Source of the DNA: Gammaproteobacteria bacterium | Lineage (GTDB): Bacteria > Pseudomonadota > Gammaproteobacteria > HK1 | Assembly: GCA_021773645.1 (NCBI GenBank) | Contig: JAJFJU010000018.1 | Location: forward strand, 1 to 64,000 | Length of the DNA stretch: 64,000 bases | Direction: 5' to 3' | Shown: positions 13,903 to 23,451 of the stretch, piece after piece | Layout: each line of letters starts with the position of its first letter | How positions within the stretch are numbered: the stretch's first letter is position 1 | Translations under genes and position numbers: made by a program | The notes under the pieces: model-generated | What the model was told of the DNA's origin: nothing | What the model saw: only the letters and a program-made list of their open reading frames with translations | The model's database searches: none

Positions 13903-14853
13903 TTGTCAGCAAATAGTGAGTCCGCTTCGGCCTTTGATCTGTCCACTTTTCAGGGACTGATTCTGGCGCTGCAAGATTTTTGGGCAAAGCAAGGTTGCGC
14001 CCTGCAGCAGCCCCTCGATATGGAGGTGGGTGCAGGCACCTTCCATCCGGCTACTTTTCTGCGTGCCATTGGGCCAGAGCCTTGGTCCGCGGCCTATGTG
14101 CAACCCTCGCGCCGACCCACTGATGGGCGCTATGGTGAGAACCCCAATCGTCTGCAGCACTATTACCAGTATCAGGTAGTGATTAAACCCTCGCCGCTGA
14201 ATATTCAAGAGCTCTATCTGGAATCACTGCAAGTCCTCGGCATCGATCCGCTGGAGCACGATATTCGCTTTGTGGAAGATAACTGGGAGTCACCGACGCT
14301 TGGGGCCTGGGGCCTGGGTTGGGAGATTTGGTTGAACGGCATGGAGATTACCCAGTTCACTTATTTTCAGCAGGTGGGCGGGCTCGAATGTCGACCGGTC
14401 ACCGCCGAGATCACCTATGGGCTGGAGCGTATCGCCATGTATCTCCAGGAGGTGGACAGCCTGTTTGACCTCACCTGGACCGATGGGCCACTTGGGCGGG
14501 TTACTTATGGTGATATTTTTCTGCAAAACGAGGCGGAGATGTCAGCCTACAATTTTGAGCACGCCGATGTGGAGGCCTTGTTCGGCTGGTTCGATAGCTG
14601 TGAGGCCGAGAGTACACGGCTGATCGAGTTGGATCTTCCGCTCCCAGCCTATGAGATGGTGCTCAAGGCCTCCCATACTTTTAATTTGCTGGATGCCCGT
14701 CAGGCCATTTCGGTGACCGAGCGCCAGCGCTATATCCTGCGTGTGCGCACTCTCTCACGTGCGGTGGCCAAGGCTTATTACGCCCGTCGGGAGGCGCTAA
14801 ACTTCCCCATGCTGGCGGATGCTGTAGCCATGCTTGAAGAGGGGGCAGCATGA
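13903..14853 (+). CDS. glyQ: glycyl-tRNA synthetase alpha subunit
   Basis: A catalytic alpha subunit of the alpha2beta2 bacterial glycyl-tRNA synthetase. The hallmark start of the domain ([46 protein letters not shown]) is intact and the body is collinear with E. coli GlyQ. No ATG is available at the right place. I prefer the TTG at 13903, giving about 316 residues; a TTG at 13858 would put the start in front of the terminator-like hairpin and is unlikely. No strong ribosome site is visible. Its last bases overlap glyS by ATGA. Confidence 0.93.
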
Positions 14854-16931
14854 GCGATATAGCAGATCTGCTGATAGAGATTGGCACCGAGGAATTGCCG
14901 CCCAAGGCCTTGCGCGGTCTTTCCCAGGCCTTTACCCGTGGTGTACAGGAGGGTTTGAAGCAGGCCGGGTTGAAGCATGCCGATGTGGTGCCTTACGCTA
15001 CACCACGCCGCTTGGCGGTGTTGGTTTCGGACCTGGTTGCCGGTCAGCCCGAGCGCCAGTCAGAGCGGCGTGGTCCCGCTGTGAAGGTGGCCTTTGATGA
15101 ACAGGGCGAGCCCACTCGCGCTGCCAGTGGTTTTGCCGCCTCTTGTGGAGTGGAGGTGGATCAACTGGAGCGCCAGGAGACCGAGCAGGGGTGCTGGCTG
15201 ATTTTTCGCAGCACTGAGGTGGGACAGACCACCACCTCACTGGTTCCAGGCATCGTAGAAAAAGCACTGGCCAATTTGCCGATTCCCAAGCGCATGCGTT
15301 GGGGATCTAGCGATATAGAGTTTGTACGCCCAGTGCATTGGGTGGTTTTGCTCTATGGAGAAACCGTCATTGATACCGAAATTTTGGGCGTCAGTGCAGG
15401 TCGACAGACTTACGGTCATCGCTTCCACGCACCTAGTGCCATCTCCCTGGAGCAACCTTCAGCCTATGCCCTGCAGCTCTATGGCAGCGCCTATGTAGTG
15501 GTGGACTTTGATACCCGCCGTTCCATGGTGCGCAAGCAGGCCGAGGCAGCCGCAGTAGAGCTCGGAGGCACAGCCATCATCAATGATGCCTTGCTCGATG
15601 AGGTCACCGCCCTGGTGGAATGGCCGGTGGCGGTCAGTGGCAGTTTTGATGAGGAATATCTGGAGCTGCCGGATCCGGCGCTTATTGCCACCATGCAGGG
15701 CAATCAGAAGTATTTTCCGGTGGCCGATGAGAGCGGCAAGCTACAGGCTCATTTCATTACCATCAGCAACATTGAGAGCAGCAACCCTGAAGCGGTCCGC
15801 TCCGGTAATGAACGGGTTATCCGCCCGCGTTTGAGCGATGCCCAATTTTTTTACCATAATGACCTCAAACACTCCCTGGAAGAGCGCCTGGAGGGGCTTA
15901 AGAATGTGGTGTTCCAGAAGGATTTGGGATCCTTGTTCGAGAAATCTCGGCGCGTCTCACGCCTTGCCGCTCACATTGCCATCGCCATGGGCGAAACCCC
16001 GGAGGCAGTGGAGCTGGCGAAGCGCGCCGGCCGCTTGTGTAAATGTGATCTGCTAACTGAGATGGTGGGTGAATTCCCTGAATTGCAGGGCACCATGGGG
16101 CGTTATTACGCCATCGCGGGCGGTGAGCCGAAGGCAGTTGTATTGGCGCTTGAGGAGTCCTATGCACCGCGTTTTGCCGGTGCCCCGGTACCGGTTAGCA
16201 CCACCAGCCAGGCGGTGGCCATGGCCGACAAGCTCGATACCCTGGTAGGCATCTTTGGTATCGGTCAGGTACCCAGCGGTGCCAAGGACCCCTTTGCCCT
16301 GCGCCGGGCGGCGCTGGGGGTGCTGCGCATCATGATTGAGGCAAAACTCAATCTTGATCTGCCAAAGCTGCTGGATGCGGCGGTCGCGGAATATCCAGAG
16401 GACATTGATCGTACGGTGGTCGAGCCCATCTTCGCCTTTATGAACGATCGGCTGCGGGCCTATTTTCTGGATCGCGGCATTCTGCCCGATGTCTTTGAGG
16501 CGGTGCAGGCCCGCCACCCCGAGCGGCCCTATGATTTTGCTCGCCGGGTACAGGCCGTGGAGGCCTTCCGTAAGTTACCGGAGGGCGAGGCCCTGTCGGC
16601 GGCGAACAAGCGCATTGGCAATATACTCAAGAAAGCCGAGGGAGAGCGGGCAGAACAGGTGGATGATGCCCTGTTTGGCGAGGATGCAGAGTGGAATCTT
16701 GCAGCCAAATTGGCGGGGCTTACGCCACAGGTGAAAAAGCTGCTGCAATCCGGTGATTACAGCGGTGCGCTGACGCGTCTCGCTGGCCTGCGGGAGGCGG
16801 TAGATGACTTTTTTGATCACGTCCAGGTGATGGCGGAGAATCCTGCGGTCCAGCAAAATCGATTGACCATGCTGAATAATATCCACGGGCTTTTCCTGCA
16901 GACGGCAGATATATCTCGCCTGCAATTCTAG
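14850..16931 (+). CDS. glyS: glycyl-tRNA synthetase beta subunit
   Basis: A 693-residue beta subunit, normal length (E. coli 689). It recognises tRNA and is needed for activity with GlyQ. The N-terminal [23 protein letters not shown], the HD-like central part and the C-terminal anticodon-binding-like tail ([24 protein letters not shown]) are all present. It starts in a 4-base ATGA overlap with glyQ, preceded by GAAGAGGGGG, so the two subunits should be made in step. Its TAG stop lies inside a CTAG palindrome. Confidence 0.96.
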
Positions 16932-16962: not shown

Positions 16963-17514
16963 ATGCATTTGGTGATACTGGGACGGGATGGTGTGATTAG
17001 CCGCCGGGGCATACGCCCACGTACGCCAGAGCAATGGGAGGCCTTGCCCGGTTCCCTGGATGCCATTGCGCGAATGAATCACGCGGGCTTTCGGGTGGTG
17101 GTAGCCACCAACCAGCCACGACTAGCGCGGCCAGGGTTCGACATCGAGGATCTGAATCGCATCCACGCCAAACTATATCGACAGTTGGCGGAGAAGGGTG
17201 GTCATATCGACGCCTTTTTCTTTTGCCCCCACGATGAAAAAGAGCGCTGCGATTGCCGCAAGCCACGTCCTGGCTTGCTCCATCAGATCAGTAGCCGGCT
17301 GCGGACGAGTGTCGAAGGGGTACCCATGGTGGGCTGTTATCTCGGGGATATCCAGGCGGCACGGGCTGCGGGAGCACAACCGGTCTATCTGCATTCCAAC
17401 GGCGGGCGTGAATTGAGTCAGGAGCACCTGGAAGGGGTCAAGGTGTTCGATGGTTTGCCGAGCTTTGTCGATTCTCTTATTGCCAAGCTGAGTACAGCGG
17501 AGGCAGCACCATAG
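16963..17514 (+). CDS. GmhB-like HAD phosphatase homologue with a degenerate active site
   Basis: A 183-residue homologue of D-glycero-manno-heptose-1,7-bisphosphate 7-phosphatase (GmhB), in the usual place after glyS and before plsC. GmhB makes a lipopolysaccharide heptose precursor. HAD motif I should read LDRDGVI; here it is LGRDGVI, so the nucleophilic Asp is Gly (codon GGA at 16981-16983). Motif IV VGDxLGD is VGCYLGD, losing another acidic residue, and the usual TNQSGIARG loop is TNQPRLARPG. Motif II Thr, motif III CDCRKP and the zinc ligands (CPH, CDC) are retained and the frame is open. It may be a pseudoenzyme or have changed function. Confidence 0.85.
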   Translation: MHLVILGRDGVISRRGIRPRTPEQWEALPGSLDAIARMNHAGFRVVVATNQPRLARPGFDIEDLNRIHAKLYRQLAEKGGHIDAFFFCPHDEKERCDCRKPRPGLLHQISSRLRTSVEGVPMVGCYLGDIQAARAAGAQPVYLHSNGGRELSQEHLEGVKVFDGLPSFVDSLIAKLSTAEAAP

Positions 17515-18242
17515 TGCACAAACGCGGCGTGGTGATGCTGCGTTCGACGCTGTTTGCCTTGGGTCAGGTCGTATCTACGATGCTGGTTGCGATCCTCGGA
17601 TTGTTGACCCTTCCCTTTCCCTACCGTACCCGCTATCGCTGCATCACTCTGTGGACCCATTTTAATCTCTGGTGGTTGGAAAAGAGCTGTGGTCTGCGCT
17701 GCGAAATAGAAGGCCTGGAGCATGTGCCGTCGCAGCCGACCATCGTTTTCTCCCGCCATGAGTCCGCCTGGGAGACGCTGGCCCTGCAGAAGGTGTTCAA
17801 CCCGCAAGTGTGGGTGCTCAAACGCGAAATACTCTGGCTGCCCTTCTTCGGTTGGGCCATCGCCATGCTAAAACCCATTGCTATTAATCGTTCCAATGCC
17901 CGGCGTGCCCTGCTCCAGCTCAAGGAGCAGGGTCGGCAGCGCCTTGAGGCCGGTTGCTGGGTAGTCATTTTCCCCGAGGGCACGCGGGTGGCTCCGGGGG
18001 AATATCGGCGTTATAGGCGTGGTGGTGCAGCACTGGCTGAGGAGACCAGCTACCCGGTGGTGCCAGTGGCCCATAATGCAGGCGACTACTGGCCACGCCG
18101 GAGCTTTCTCAAGTGGCCCGGAACCATTCGCTTGGTGGTAGGCCCGGTAATTGAGAGCAAGGGTCGGAGTGCGGCCCAAATCAATGCCCTTGCCGAGAGT
18201 TGGATCGAGACTACAGTCGCCCGCCTGCGCGAGAAAACTTAG
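17514..18242 (+). CDS. plsC: 1-acyl-sn-glycerol-3-phosphate acyltransferase
   Basis: A 242-residue PlsC-type acyltransferase that converts lysophosphatidic acid to phosphatidic acid at the inner membrane. An N-terminal hydrophobic helix (LVAILGLLTLPFPY) is followed by block I RHESAWET (an H-x4-E form common in this branch instead of H-x4-D), block II KREILWLPFFGWA, and block III FPEGTRVAPGE. The GTG at 17514 overlaps the stop of the preceding gene; an ATG at 17535 is an alternative. Its TAG stop abuts a small inverted-repeat element. Confidence 0.92.
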   Translation: MHKRGVVMLRSTLFALGQVVSTMLVAILGLLTLPFPYRTRYRCITLWTHFNLWWLEKSCGLRCEIEGLEHVPSQPTIVFSRHESAWETLALQKVFNPQVWVLKREILWLPFFGWAIAMLKPIAINRSNARRALLQLKEQGRQRLEAGCWVVIFPEGTRVAPGEYRRYRRGGAALAEETSYPVVPVAHNAGDYWPRRSFLKWPGTIRLVVGPVIESKGRSAAQINALAESWIETTVARLREKT

Positions 18243-20102: not shown

Positions 20103-21161
20103 CTAGCCGAAATTAATCTTGGCTTCCAGATTGGTGCGGGAATCGGCATTGGACAGGGCCTCTTCCAAGTTAATTCGTCCCTCCTTGTAGAGCTCATGGA
20201 GTGCGGCATCGAAGGTCTGCATGCCCGGGGTTCCGCTGGCCTCCATGGCCTCCTTGATGGCATCAATTTCCCCTTTGAGGATGAGCTCCGAAATGTGCGG
20301 GGTATTGATGAGCACCTCGATGGCAGCGCAGCGCTTGCCGTGCACATCCTTCACTAGGCGTTGGGAGATCACCGCGCAGAGATTGAGCGAGAGGTCCATG
20401 AATAGCTGACGGTGCAGGGTCTGTGGAAACATGTTAATGACCCGTTCCATGGTCTGATTGGCATTATTCGCGTGCAGGGTCGAGAGCGCTAGGTGGCCGG
20501 TATTGCAAAGCTCCAGTGCCGCTTCCATGGTCTCCCGGCCTCGGATTTCACCAATGAGAATGACATCAGGGGCCTCACGCAGGGAAGATTTCAAGGCCTT
20601 CTCGTAGCTCACCGTATCGACCCCCACTTCACGTTGATTGAGGATGGATTTCTGGTTGGGGTGATAGAACTCAATAGGGTCTTCAATAGTGAGAATGTGC
20701 CCTGCCATAGTGCTATTGCGATGATTGATCATGGCCGCCAGGGTGGTGGATTTACCCGAGCCAGTGGCACCCACCATGAGAATTAGCCCTCGCTTTCGGG
20801 CAATCAAATCCTTAAGGATAAGCGGCAGACCCAGCTCCTCAATGCTGGGGATTTTGGAGGGAATCAGACGCAGCACCATGGCTACATCGCCACGCTGGCG
20901 AAACACATTGACCCGAAAGCGGGCACTGCCATCTTCAAGAGCAATGGCAAAATCACTCTCCAAATCTTGCTCAAAGGCGGCAATCTGGGCCTCGTTCATG
21001 ATCCCATAGGCCGCAGCTTTTACCAGTTCTCCGGTGAGTTGGCTCTTGCCCACCGAAGTGAGAGTGCCTTCAAGCTTGATCTTCACCGCAGCGCCCGCGG
21101 TGAAAAATAGATCCGAGGCTTTCTTATCCTGCATCAATTTGAGATAGGGCGTGATATCCAT
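20103..21161 (-). CDS. PilU-like type IV pilus retraction ATPase (second paralogue)
   Basis: A 352-residue PilT/PilU-family hexameric ATPase. Walker A is GATGSGKSTT, the Asp box LTIEDPIEFYH, Walker B VILIGEIRGRETM and the His box TGHLALSTLHANNANQTMERV. Sequence such as SDLFFTAGAAVKIKLEG and the ESDFAIALEDGSARFR segment is nearer PilU than PilT. It is the third gene of the pilT-pilU-pilU2 run, 53 bp after pilU. Whether it retracts pili or modulates PilT is not known. It is convergent with DUF3106. Confidence 0.88.
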   Translation of the reverse strand: MDITPYLKLMQDKKASDLFFTAGAAVKIKLEGTLTSVGKSQLTGELVKAAAYGIMNEAQIAAFEQDLESDFAIALEDGSARFRVNVFRQRGDVAMVLRLIPSKIPSIEELGLPLILKDLIARKRGLILMVGATGSGKSTTLAAMINHRNSTMAGHILTIEDPIEFYHPNQKSILNQREVGVDTVSYEKALKSSLREAPDVILIGEIRGRETMEAALELCNTGHLALSTLHANNANQTMERVINMFPQTLHRQLFMDLSLNLCAVISQRLVKDVHGKRCAAIEVLINTPHISELILKGEIDAIKEAMEASGTPGMQTFDAALHELYKEGRINLEEALSNADSRTNLEAKINFG

Positions 21162-21214
21162 CGCGTGTTCCAGTCAGTGTTTGATAGCGGGAAGCAAAAT
21201 CAGGTTAATTCGTT

Positions 21215-22387
21215 TCAGCCCATCATGCCGCCAGATTGATCGTCGTCACTCTCTTCCATAGAAAGATGTTCAAGGCCATCCAGCGCACCTTTGTTCTTGG
21301 CTGCCTTGCCTTCGAGCTTGATCCGTAGTCGTAGCTCATTCATTGAGTCGGCATTGCGCATGGCGTCATCAAAGCTGATCTTGTCTTCCTCGTAGAGATC
21401 GAAGAGGGCTTGGTCAAAGGTCTTCATTCCTAGCTCATTAGATTTCTGCATGATGGGCTTGATCTCATGCAGATCGCCTTTGAGGATGAGATCCTTGATC
21501 AGCGGTGAGTTGAGTAGAATCTCAATGGCTGCGACGCGGCCCTTGCCATCTTTGGTTTTAAGCAGGCGCTGGGAAATGATACAACGCAGATTGGCCGACA
21601 GATCCATCAGCAGCTGTTGTTTGCGCTCCTCCGGGAAAAAGTTGATAACCCGATCCAGCGCCTGATTGGCATTGTTGGCGTGCAGGGTGGCGAGTGCCAG
21701 ATGGCCGGTTTCGGCAAACTGGATGCCAAAGCCCATGGTTTCTCGATCCCGGATCTCACCCAGCAGGATCACGTCCGGGGCTTGGCGCAGGGTGTTCTTG
21801 AGGGCAATTCCCCAATCCTCGGTATCCACCCCGACCTCGCGTTGCATGATGATGCAGCCCTTATGGGGATGGACGTACTCGATGGGATCCTCAATGGTGA
21901 TGATGTGGCCTTTGGAATGCTCATTGCGGTAATCGACCATGGCCGCAAGGCTGGTGGATTTACCGGAACCGGTACCACCGACCATGATCACCAGGCCGTT
22001 CTTGGCCATGACCACATCTTTTAGTACCTCGGGTAGTCCCAACTGGTCGATATTAGGAATGTCAGTGGTAATGGTGCGCATCACTAGCCCCGCGCAGCCC
22101 TGTTGAATAAAGGCGTTACAGCGAAAGCGCCCGACTCCGGGCGGTGCCACCGCAAAATTACACTCCTTGGTGGCATCAAACTCCTTGAGCTGGCGGTCGT
22201 TCATGATCGCGTAAGTCAGGGCTTGGGCGTTTTCGGCACTCAGCGCCTGTTTGGAGACCGCGGTGACTTGCCCATCCACCTTAATGGCCGGTGGAAAACC
22301 AGCGGTAATAAAAAGATCCGAGCCATCCTTCTTAATCATCAACTTAAGAAGATCCAGCATGAATTTGATTGCTTGTTCTCGTTCCAT
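21215..22387 (-). CDS. pilU: type IV pilus retraction ATPase PilU
   Basis: A 390-residue PilU-type ATPase, close in length to Pseudomonas PilU (382). Features: SDLFITAGFPPAIKVDGQ, Walker A GGTGSGKSTS (second residue G instead of A), IEDPIEYVHPHKGCIIMQREVGVDT, Walker B VILLGEIRDRETM, the TGHLALATLHANNANQALDRVINFFPEERK segment and an acidic C-terminal tail (EESDDDQSGG) typical of PilU. PilU works with PilT in pilus retraction at the inner-membrane base. It lies 26 bp after pilT, so they are one transcript. Confidence 0.93.
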   Translation of the reverse strand: MEREQAIKFMLDLLKLMIKKDGSDLFITAGFPPAIKVDGQVTAVSKQALSAENAQALTYAIMNDRQLKEFDATKECNFAVAPPGVGRFRCNAFIQQGCAGLVMRTITTDIPNIDQLGLPEVLKDVVMAKNGLVIMVGGTGSGKSTSLAAMVDYRNEHSKGHIITIEDPIEYVHPHKGCIIMQREVGVDTEDWGIALKNTLRQAPDVILLGEIRDRETMGFGIQFAETGHLALATLHANNANQALDRVINFFPEERKQQLLMDLSANLRCIISQRLLKTKDGKGRVAAIEILLNSPLIKDLILKGDLHEIKPIMQKSNELGMKTFDQALFDLYEEDKISFDDAMRNADSMNELRLRIKLEGKAAKNKGALDGLEHLSMEESDDDQSGGMMG

Positions 22388-22413
22388 GGTTCCCCTCCGG
22401 GAAATATCGCTGG

Positions 22414-23451
22414 CTACTGAATGGAATCCTTATTGGCAGCCTTCGAGGCGGCCTCTTTACGCGATACCTGATTTTCATTCACCAGCCGCTGCAAATCCTG
22501 ATCCAAGGTCTTCATGCCGTGGGCCTGTCCAGTCTGGATAGCCGAATACATCTGCGCAATCTTGGACTCACGGATAAGATTCCGAATAGCCGGTGTGCCG
22601 ATCATAATCTCGTGGGCCGCTACCCGGCCACCGCCGTTTTTCTTCAGCAAAGTCTGGGAGATAACCGCGCGTAGCGATTCTGATAGCATGGCGCGGATCA
22701 TGTCCTTTTCCGCTGCGGGAAAGACATCAACGATACGATCGATGGTCTTGGCCGCAGAGCTGGTATGCAGGGTACCAAACACCAGATGGCCGGTTTCCGC
22801 AGCAGAGAGCGCCAGGCGGATGGTCTCCAAATCCCGCAACTCACCTACCAAGATGACATCGGGGTCCTCGCGCAGTGCTGAACGCAGGGCCTCGTTAAAG
22901 CCCAGGGTATCGCGATGCACCTCGCGCTGGTTTATCAGGCATTTGTTGCTGGTGTGGACGAACTCGATGGGATCTTCAACGGTGAGAATATGGCCGTATT
23001 CTGTTTTATTCTTGTGATCAACCATGGCCGCCAGGGTGGTGGATTTGCCCGAGCCCGTGGGTCCGGTGACCAGTACCACGCCGCGAGGATAGTCAGAGAT
23101 TTCCTTAAAAATTGCCGGGCATTTGAGATCGTCAAGGCTGAGGATGTCAGAAGGGATGGTACGGAATACCGCACCGGAACCGCGCTGATGATTGAAGGCG
23201 TTAACCCGAAAGCGCGCCAGGCCCGGGATCTCGAAACTGAAATCGGTTTCGAGAAATTCCTCGTAATCCTTGCGCTGTTTATCGTTCATGATGTCATAGA
23301 CGAGATCGTGCACGGTCTTATGATCCAGCGCCGGCAGGTTGATCCGGCGGACATCGCCATCGACCCGGATCATCGGCGGCAGCCCTGCCGAGAGATGGAG
23401 ATCCGAGCAACCGTTTTTCACCCCAAATGCGAGCAGTTCACCAATATCCAT
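22414..23451 (-). CDS. pilT: type IV pilus twitching motility ATPase PilT
   Basis: A 345-residue PilT, exactly family length. It powers pilus disassembly for twitching and DNA uptake. Motifs: GCSDLHLSAGLPPMIRVDG, Walker A GPTGSGKSTT, EDPIEFVH, Walker B VILVGELRDLETI, the AIRNLIRE C-terminal motif and the closing segment. First gene of the ATPase run and divergent from yggS, the usual order in gammaproteobacteria. Pilin and assembly genes are not in this window. Confidence 0.96.
   Translation of the reverse strand: MDIGELLAFGVKNGCSDLHLSAGLPPMIRVDGDVRRINLPALDHKTVHDLVYDIMNDKQRKDYEEFLETDFSFEIPGLARFRVNAFNHQRGSGAVFRTIPSDILSLDDLKCPAIFKEISDYPRGVVLVTGPTGSGKSTTLAAMVDHKNKTEYGHILTVEDPIEFVHTSNKCLINQREVHRDTLGFNEALRSALREDPDVILVGELRDLETIRLALSAAETGHLVFGTLHTSSAAKTIDRIVDVFPAAEKDMIRAMLSESLRAVISQTLLKKNGGGRVAAHEIMIGTPAIRNLIRESKIAQMYSAIQTGQAHGMKTLDQDLQRLVNENQVSRKEAASKAANKDSIQ

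Follow-up and report, generated by a model that had tools for sequence, protein, structure and literature searches.

How a GmhB-family gene that has lost the residues on which its chemistry depends can persist as an intact frame is the question raised by a locus in the window, the 64,000-nucleotide stretch of DNA analysed here. The gmhB-like gene at positions 16963 to 17514 of the forward strand translates as MHLVILGRDGVI...VVVATNQPRLARPGF...FFCPHDEKERCDCRKPRPG...MVGCYLGDIQ, a protein of 183 amino acids with no internal stop. Sequence comparison revealed that the nucleophile Asp of HAD motif I (DxD) is replaced by Gly7 (codon GGA, 16981 to 16983, forward strand), giving LGRDGVI, and that the Mg-binding Asp of motif IV (GDxxxD) is replaced by Cys125 (codon TGT, 17335 to 17337, forward strand). 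Both positions are Asp in 55 of 55 GmhBs from hldE-positive gammaproteobacterial genomes. Motif II, T49-NQ, is followed by an altered substrate loop, PRLARP, where canonical GmhB has SGIARG (17107 to 17133, forward strand). The zinc loop C-x-H-x5-C-x-C is kept (CPHDEKERCDCRKPRPG, 17224 to 17274, forward strand; ligands C88, H90, C96 and C98) together with Arg99 and motif III Lys100, all six of these residues being invariant in the genus, and Asp9, Thr49 and Asp129 are also retained. A sequence-only reading of this DNA had described the Gly substitution and its GGA codon, the VGCYLGD form of motif IV, the changed loop, the surviving zinc Cys/His ligands, motif II Thr and motif III Lys, and the intact frame; translation bore out each of these, as did alignment with homologues for motif I.

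Profiles, structure matches and a tree all place the protein in the GmhB/histidinol-phosphatase branch of HAD-IIIA. Its scores exceeded the cut-offs of TIGR01656 and TIGR01662 and, at 165 bits, fell slightly below the cut-off of 178 for NF006506 (GmhB). The closest solved structures are the GmhBs of Burkholderia thailandensis (4pnh), Bordetella bronchiseptica (3l8h) and Escherichia coli (2gmw); a search of a plasmid collection returned distant homologues only. An AlphaFold model built from a 30-sequence alignment had a pLDDT of 91.6 and a pTM of 0.89, with 3l8h as its best PDB match (TM 0.87-0.89) and E. coli GmhB at TM 0.81-0.82. The protein thus shares with active GmhB (2gmw, 3l8h and 4pnh) its predicted fold, zinc loop, motif II Thr and motif III Arg-Lys. 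Unlike active GmhB, it lacks the nucleophile and the motif IV Mg ligand, has a rewritten loop and is encoded by a genome without a heptose pathway.

Under the HAD mechanism, a protein without the acceptor Asp and with a damaged Mg site should not hydrolyse its substrate in the usual way. Because both the nucleophile and the motif IV Mg ligand have been lost, the protein would hardly be able to work as a Mg-dependent phosphatase. It might instead have changed its reaction, with the pocket, zinc loop, Asp9, Lys100 and Asp129 still doing chemistry without an Asp nucleophile. The survival of these residues, and of Thr49, Arg99 and every zinc ligand, would suit such an enzyme, but two Mg-coordinating carboxylates are missing and position 125 is Cys in two species of the genus and Ser in the third (OFTM98), so that no new conserved nucleophile is present there; we regard a changed reaction as improbable.

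Two congeneric metagenome-assembled genomes, OFTM50 (G002/L038) and OFTM98 (G001/L039), encode gmhB-like proteins that are 89% and 82-83% identical, respectively, to that of the window. Motif I is LGRDGVI in both, and the Gly codon is GGA, GGG or GGT across the three species. The presence of Gly7 in all three, specified by three different codons, implies that the change was fixed before the species split. Conservation of the Gly within a clade was the comparison that the sequence-only reading had proposed, and the two findings that it named as fatal to its case, a sequencing error at 16981-16983 and a single-strain mutation, are both contradicted by this agreement among species. A sequencing error as the cause of Gly7 was accordingly ruled out. 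The broader explanation, that sequencing or assembly errors produced the nucleophile loss or that the heptose genes are merely missing from incomplete assemblies, draws on the draft state of all three genomes, of which both congeners are metagenome-assembled. It deserves almost no credence, given that the three species concur with different codons in genomes that are all ∼99% complete and that four separate heptose gene families are missing from every one of them.

The window genome (2.49 Mb) is 99.9% complete and its two congeners are 99% complete. Profile searches of these three genomes did not find hldE (best score 38.6 bits against a cut-off of 345), gmhA (26-27 bits against 209) or a GT9 heptosyltransferase, and no hldD match exceeded its cut-off of 274.6 bits; the sub-threshold hldD matches, at 120-156 bits, lie in the range of related sugar-nucleotide epimerases. 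The ADP-heptose partner genes gmhA, hldE and hldD are thus absent from the window genome by these searches. The Kdo transferase KdtA was present in all three genomes (230-238 bits). A second GmhB elsewhere in the window genome was considered and rejected, the remaining HAD-IIIA matches being weak (43 bits or less, below the cut-off), and the idea of an alternative heptose phosphatase is moot because the rest of the pathway is missing. The earlier expectation of either another heptose phosphatase or no heptose LPS, and the search for a second GmhB, hldE and gmhA that went with it, therefore point to the second option. The organism very probably has no heptose LPS, and the gene content suggests Kdo-lipid A with no heptose in the inner core.

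Other members of the same taxonomic family vary in this respect. G006 and G008 carry hldE, hldD, gmhA, GT9 and an intact GmhB, and G007 (81% complete) carries gmhA, GT9 and an intact GmhB. Among family members lacking hldE, GmhB is damaged in G009, G012, G015 and G016 and was not found in G003, G004, G005, G010, G011 and G014; G013 has no hldE, yet its GmhB is intact.

To place these cases in a wider sample, 72 GmhB sequences from 113 relatives were scored at five catalytic positions (D7, D9, K100, D125 and D129). The set was complete in 54 of 55 hldE-positive genomes and incomplete in 9 of 17 hldE-negative ones (Fisher p = 2.5e-6, with genomes treated as independent and kinship uncorrected). 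The sole hldE-positive exception, G021, has an atypical zinc-loop stretch in a genome that is 62% complete. In the GmhB tree, catalytic residues were lost in at least five lineages (g1, which is the window's genus; g8; G015/G016; family f44; and G076), and the window's genus has a long stem (0.66) and a short crown (0.04-0.15). By inspection, the degenerate homologues converge on Pro at position 52 in place of the Ser that follows NQ (10 of 11, G076 being the exception), a change absent from all intact homologues. In that genome (L130:3446-4000), GmhB adjoins plsC and keeps its nucleophile, with motif III Lys changed to Leu and the last motif IV Asp to Ala; no hldE was found there.

An intact GmhB accompanies the absence of hldE in eight genomes (G007, G013, G020, G049, G057, G067, G091 and G095). 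G007 and G020 do carry gmhA, so some of the eight may be accounted for by incomplete assembly or by a GDP-heptose pathway. G057, G067 and G091 are near-complete genomes in which hldE is absent and GmhB is fully intact; GDP-heptose or another sugar phosphate is a possible substrate.

The clearest parallel to the window gene was found in genus g51 of family f44. Motif I is LAIDGVI in G059 (L129:3806-4339) and, with the same Asp-to-Gly change as in the window, LGRDGVI in G114 (L140) and G115 (L141); G113, of the same family, has an intact GmhB. The search for hldE, made after the motifs had been read, detected the gene in G113 (420.7 bits) and did not find it in G059, G114 or G115, of which G114 is only 79% complete. 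The nucleophile position is therefore Gly, Gly and Ala in the g51 species without hldE and intact in the species that bears it. This loss is independent of that in the window's genus, and the nucleophile seems to have been lost first, because G114 retains the other four catalytic positions. The g51 proteins resemble that of the window in the Asp-to-Gly change (two species), the loop Ser-to-Pro change, the failure to find hldE and, for G059, the glyS-gmhB-plsC locus. They differ in their separate origin and in evolving faster than their neighbours: between G059 and G115, identity is 51% for gmhB, 88% for plsC and 77% for glyS, and dN/dS is 0.15 for gmhB against 0.03 and 0.05 for the neighbours, at saturated dS. 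This rate suggests that the g51 gene is probably decaying.

Such decay raises the possibility that the window gene is likewise a relic, useless after loss of the heptose pathway, functionless and slowly eroding. Several other hldE-negative lineages fit this description. As in G059/G115, gmhB dN/dS exceeds that of neighbouring genes between G009 and G012 (0.20 against 0.07-0.12 for five neighbours); it is 0.37 between G013 and G015 and 0.29 between G015 and G016, compared with 0.13 and 0.25 for two G013-G015 neighbours. In G003 and G004 (L133 and L135), gmhB is missing from between glyS and plsC, which lie 2-10 bases apart. That the orphaned gene in related genera is either faster-evolving or absent indicates that decay is its default fate.

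By contrast, gmhB dN/dS among the three genomes of the window's genus was 0.08-0.11 (NG86) or 0.10-0.145 (YN00) at dS values of 0.7-1.1, compared with 0.06-0.09 for glyS, 0.08-0.11 for plsC, which was used as a yardstick, and 0.07-0.09 for the ETF-QO gene. The bootstrap ranges for gmhB overlap those of the neighbours but are wide (0.04-0.18), with only three genomes compared. Protein identity within the genus is similarly 83-89% for gmhB and 84-91% for the neighbours. The 37 variable alignment positions fall mostly past residue 143, and no variation was seen in residues 3-30 or in the zinc ligands; the Cys/Cys/Ser variation at residue 125 indicates that constraint does not act on every part of the former active site. 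In neutral simulations at 0.45 substitutions per site, fewer than 1% of runs kept a stop-free frame, and substitution-only runs gained a mean of 4.6 stops per branch, so a neutral gene would nearly always have acquired a stop. The dead protein of the window's genus is not decaying and is under purifying selection like that on glyS and plsC. Given a dN/dS equal to that of essential neighbours when dS is close to 1, a frame open in three of three species and an inactive state older than the whole interval measured, we consider it doubtful that the window gene is a relic.

The frame might also be kept for its position, merely to carry translation from glyS through to plsC. The gene lies downstream of glyS (glycyl-tRNA synthetase beta chain, 14850 to 16931, forward strand) and upstream of plsC (lysophosphatidic acid acyltransferase, 17514 to 18242, forward strand), and base 17514 is common to its TAG stop and the GTG start of plsC. 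The coupling to plsC claimed from the sequence is thus real in the window, and the one-base overlap recurs in OFTM98; it is not conserved, as a gap of ∼167 bp precedes plsC in OFTM50, and it is accordingly weak evidence. In OFTM98, an unrelated 425-codon open reading frame (L039:2717-3994), amidohydrolase-like by eye, lies between glyS and the gmhB-like gene. The OFTM98 insertion upstream and the OFTM50 gap downstream imply that gmhB is retained independently of operon coupling. Moreover, plsC follows glyS by 10 bases in G004 without any gmhB, and coupling would not keep an amino acid sequence at a dN/dS of 0.1, which makes this explanation very unlikely.

The glyS-gmhB-plsC locus is common to relatives with intact GmhB, and the order glyQ-glyS-gmhB-plsC, which G006 shares with the distant G059, is probably ancestral. 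In G008, G009 and G012 (L042, L043 and L044), gmhB lies near a cysS-like gene and not beside glyS, having moved within the family.

These observations can be explained by the following sequence of events. The window gene would have descended vertically as the gmhB of the glyS-gmhB-plsC locus. Judging from gene content, an ancestor of the genus lost the entire ADP-heptose arm of LPS synthesis, leaving the phosphatase without a substrate. Asp7 and Asp125 were lost and the substrate loop was rewritten before the three species separated; that pathway loss came before residue loss is the presumed order. The predicted fold, zinc loop and Arg-Lys anion site have been kept, under normal purifying selection since. 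The preserved surfaces are the motif I strand and the zinc loop with CRKPRPG, which in GmhB structures faces the substrate phosphate. The protein's most likely mode of action is non-catalytic, through binding of either a phosphorylated ligand or a partner protein.

We put at roughly 0.6 the probability that an orphaned enzyme has become a pseudoenzyme under constraint, with a role in binding rather than catalysis, the role being the more conjectural part. The pseudoenzyme proposed in the sequence-only reading is supported by the old, shared inactivation and by purifying selection equal to that on the flanking genes; the new ligand-binding role that it also proposed is a plausible extension. 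A precedent exists in the PcrP/PA2803 subfamily of Pseudomonas, HAD pseudoenzymes that have lost the nucleophile and Mg ligands, are conserved and inactive, and bind protein partners (PMC12632274). The window protein is likewise a conserved HAD protein without nucleophile and Mg ligands; unlike it, the PcrP/PA2803 proteins derive from C1-cap phosphonatases rather than GmhB/HisB-N, show wider loss and have no link to a lost pathway. A full-text search of open-licence papers returned none that pairs GmhB with "pseudoenzyme".

A more general possibility, which we advance tentatively and think unlikely, is that GmhB in many Gammaproteobacteria also fills a second role independent of catalysis and that heptose loss leads repeatedly to the Asp-to-Gly and loop Ser-to-Pro changes, leaving that role behind. 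If so, GmhB could interact, for example, with a translation or membrane-lipid protein, consistent with the glyS-gmhB-plsC order, and catalysis, useless or harmful without the heptose pathway, would have been removed repeatedly through the nucleophile. The LPS of E. coli and Klebsiella depends only in part on GmhB (PMC9302095), which indicates that the full role of this enzyme is not settled. GmhB was also among the ten proteins recovered in an E. coli Ap4A pull-down (PMC10657157); Ap4A binding as a GmhB role was set aside, a single such appearance being too thin.

The relatives form a natural series after pathway loss, from the intact enzyme with its pathway, through the decaying orphan and absence from the locus, to one lineage that holds an inactive protein by selection. 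The series makes a GmhB function beyond heptose bisphosphate dephosphorylation a directly testable question. Automatic annotation could label the window protein a heptose phosphatase, implying heptose LPS where very probably none is made.

Elsewhere in the window, three PilT/PilU-like ATPase genes lie in tandem at 20103-23451 on the reverse strand. In the congeners, the first shares 52% identity with the second and 42% with the third.
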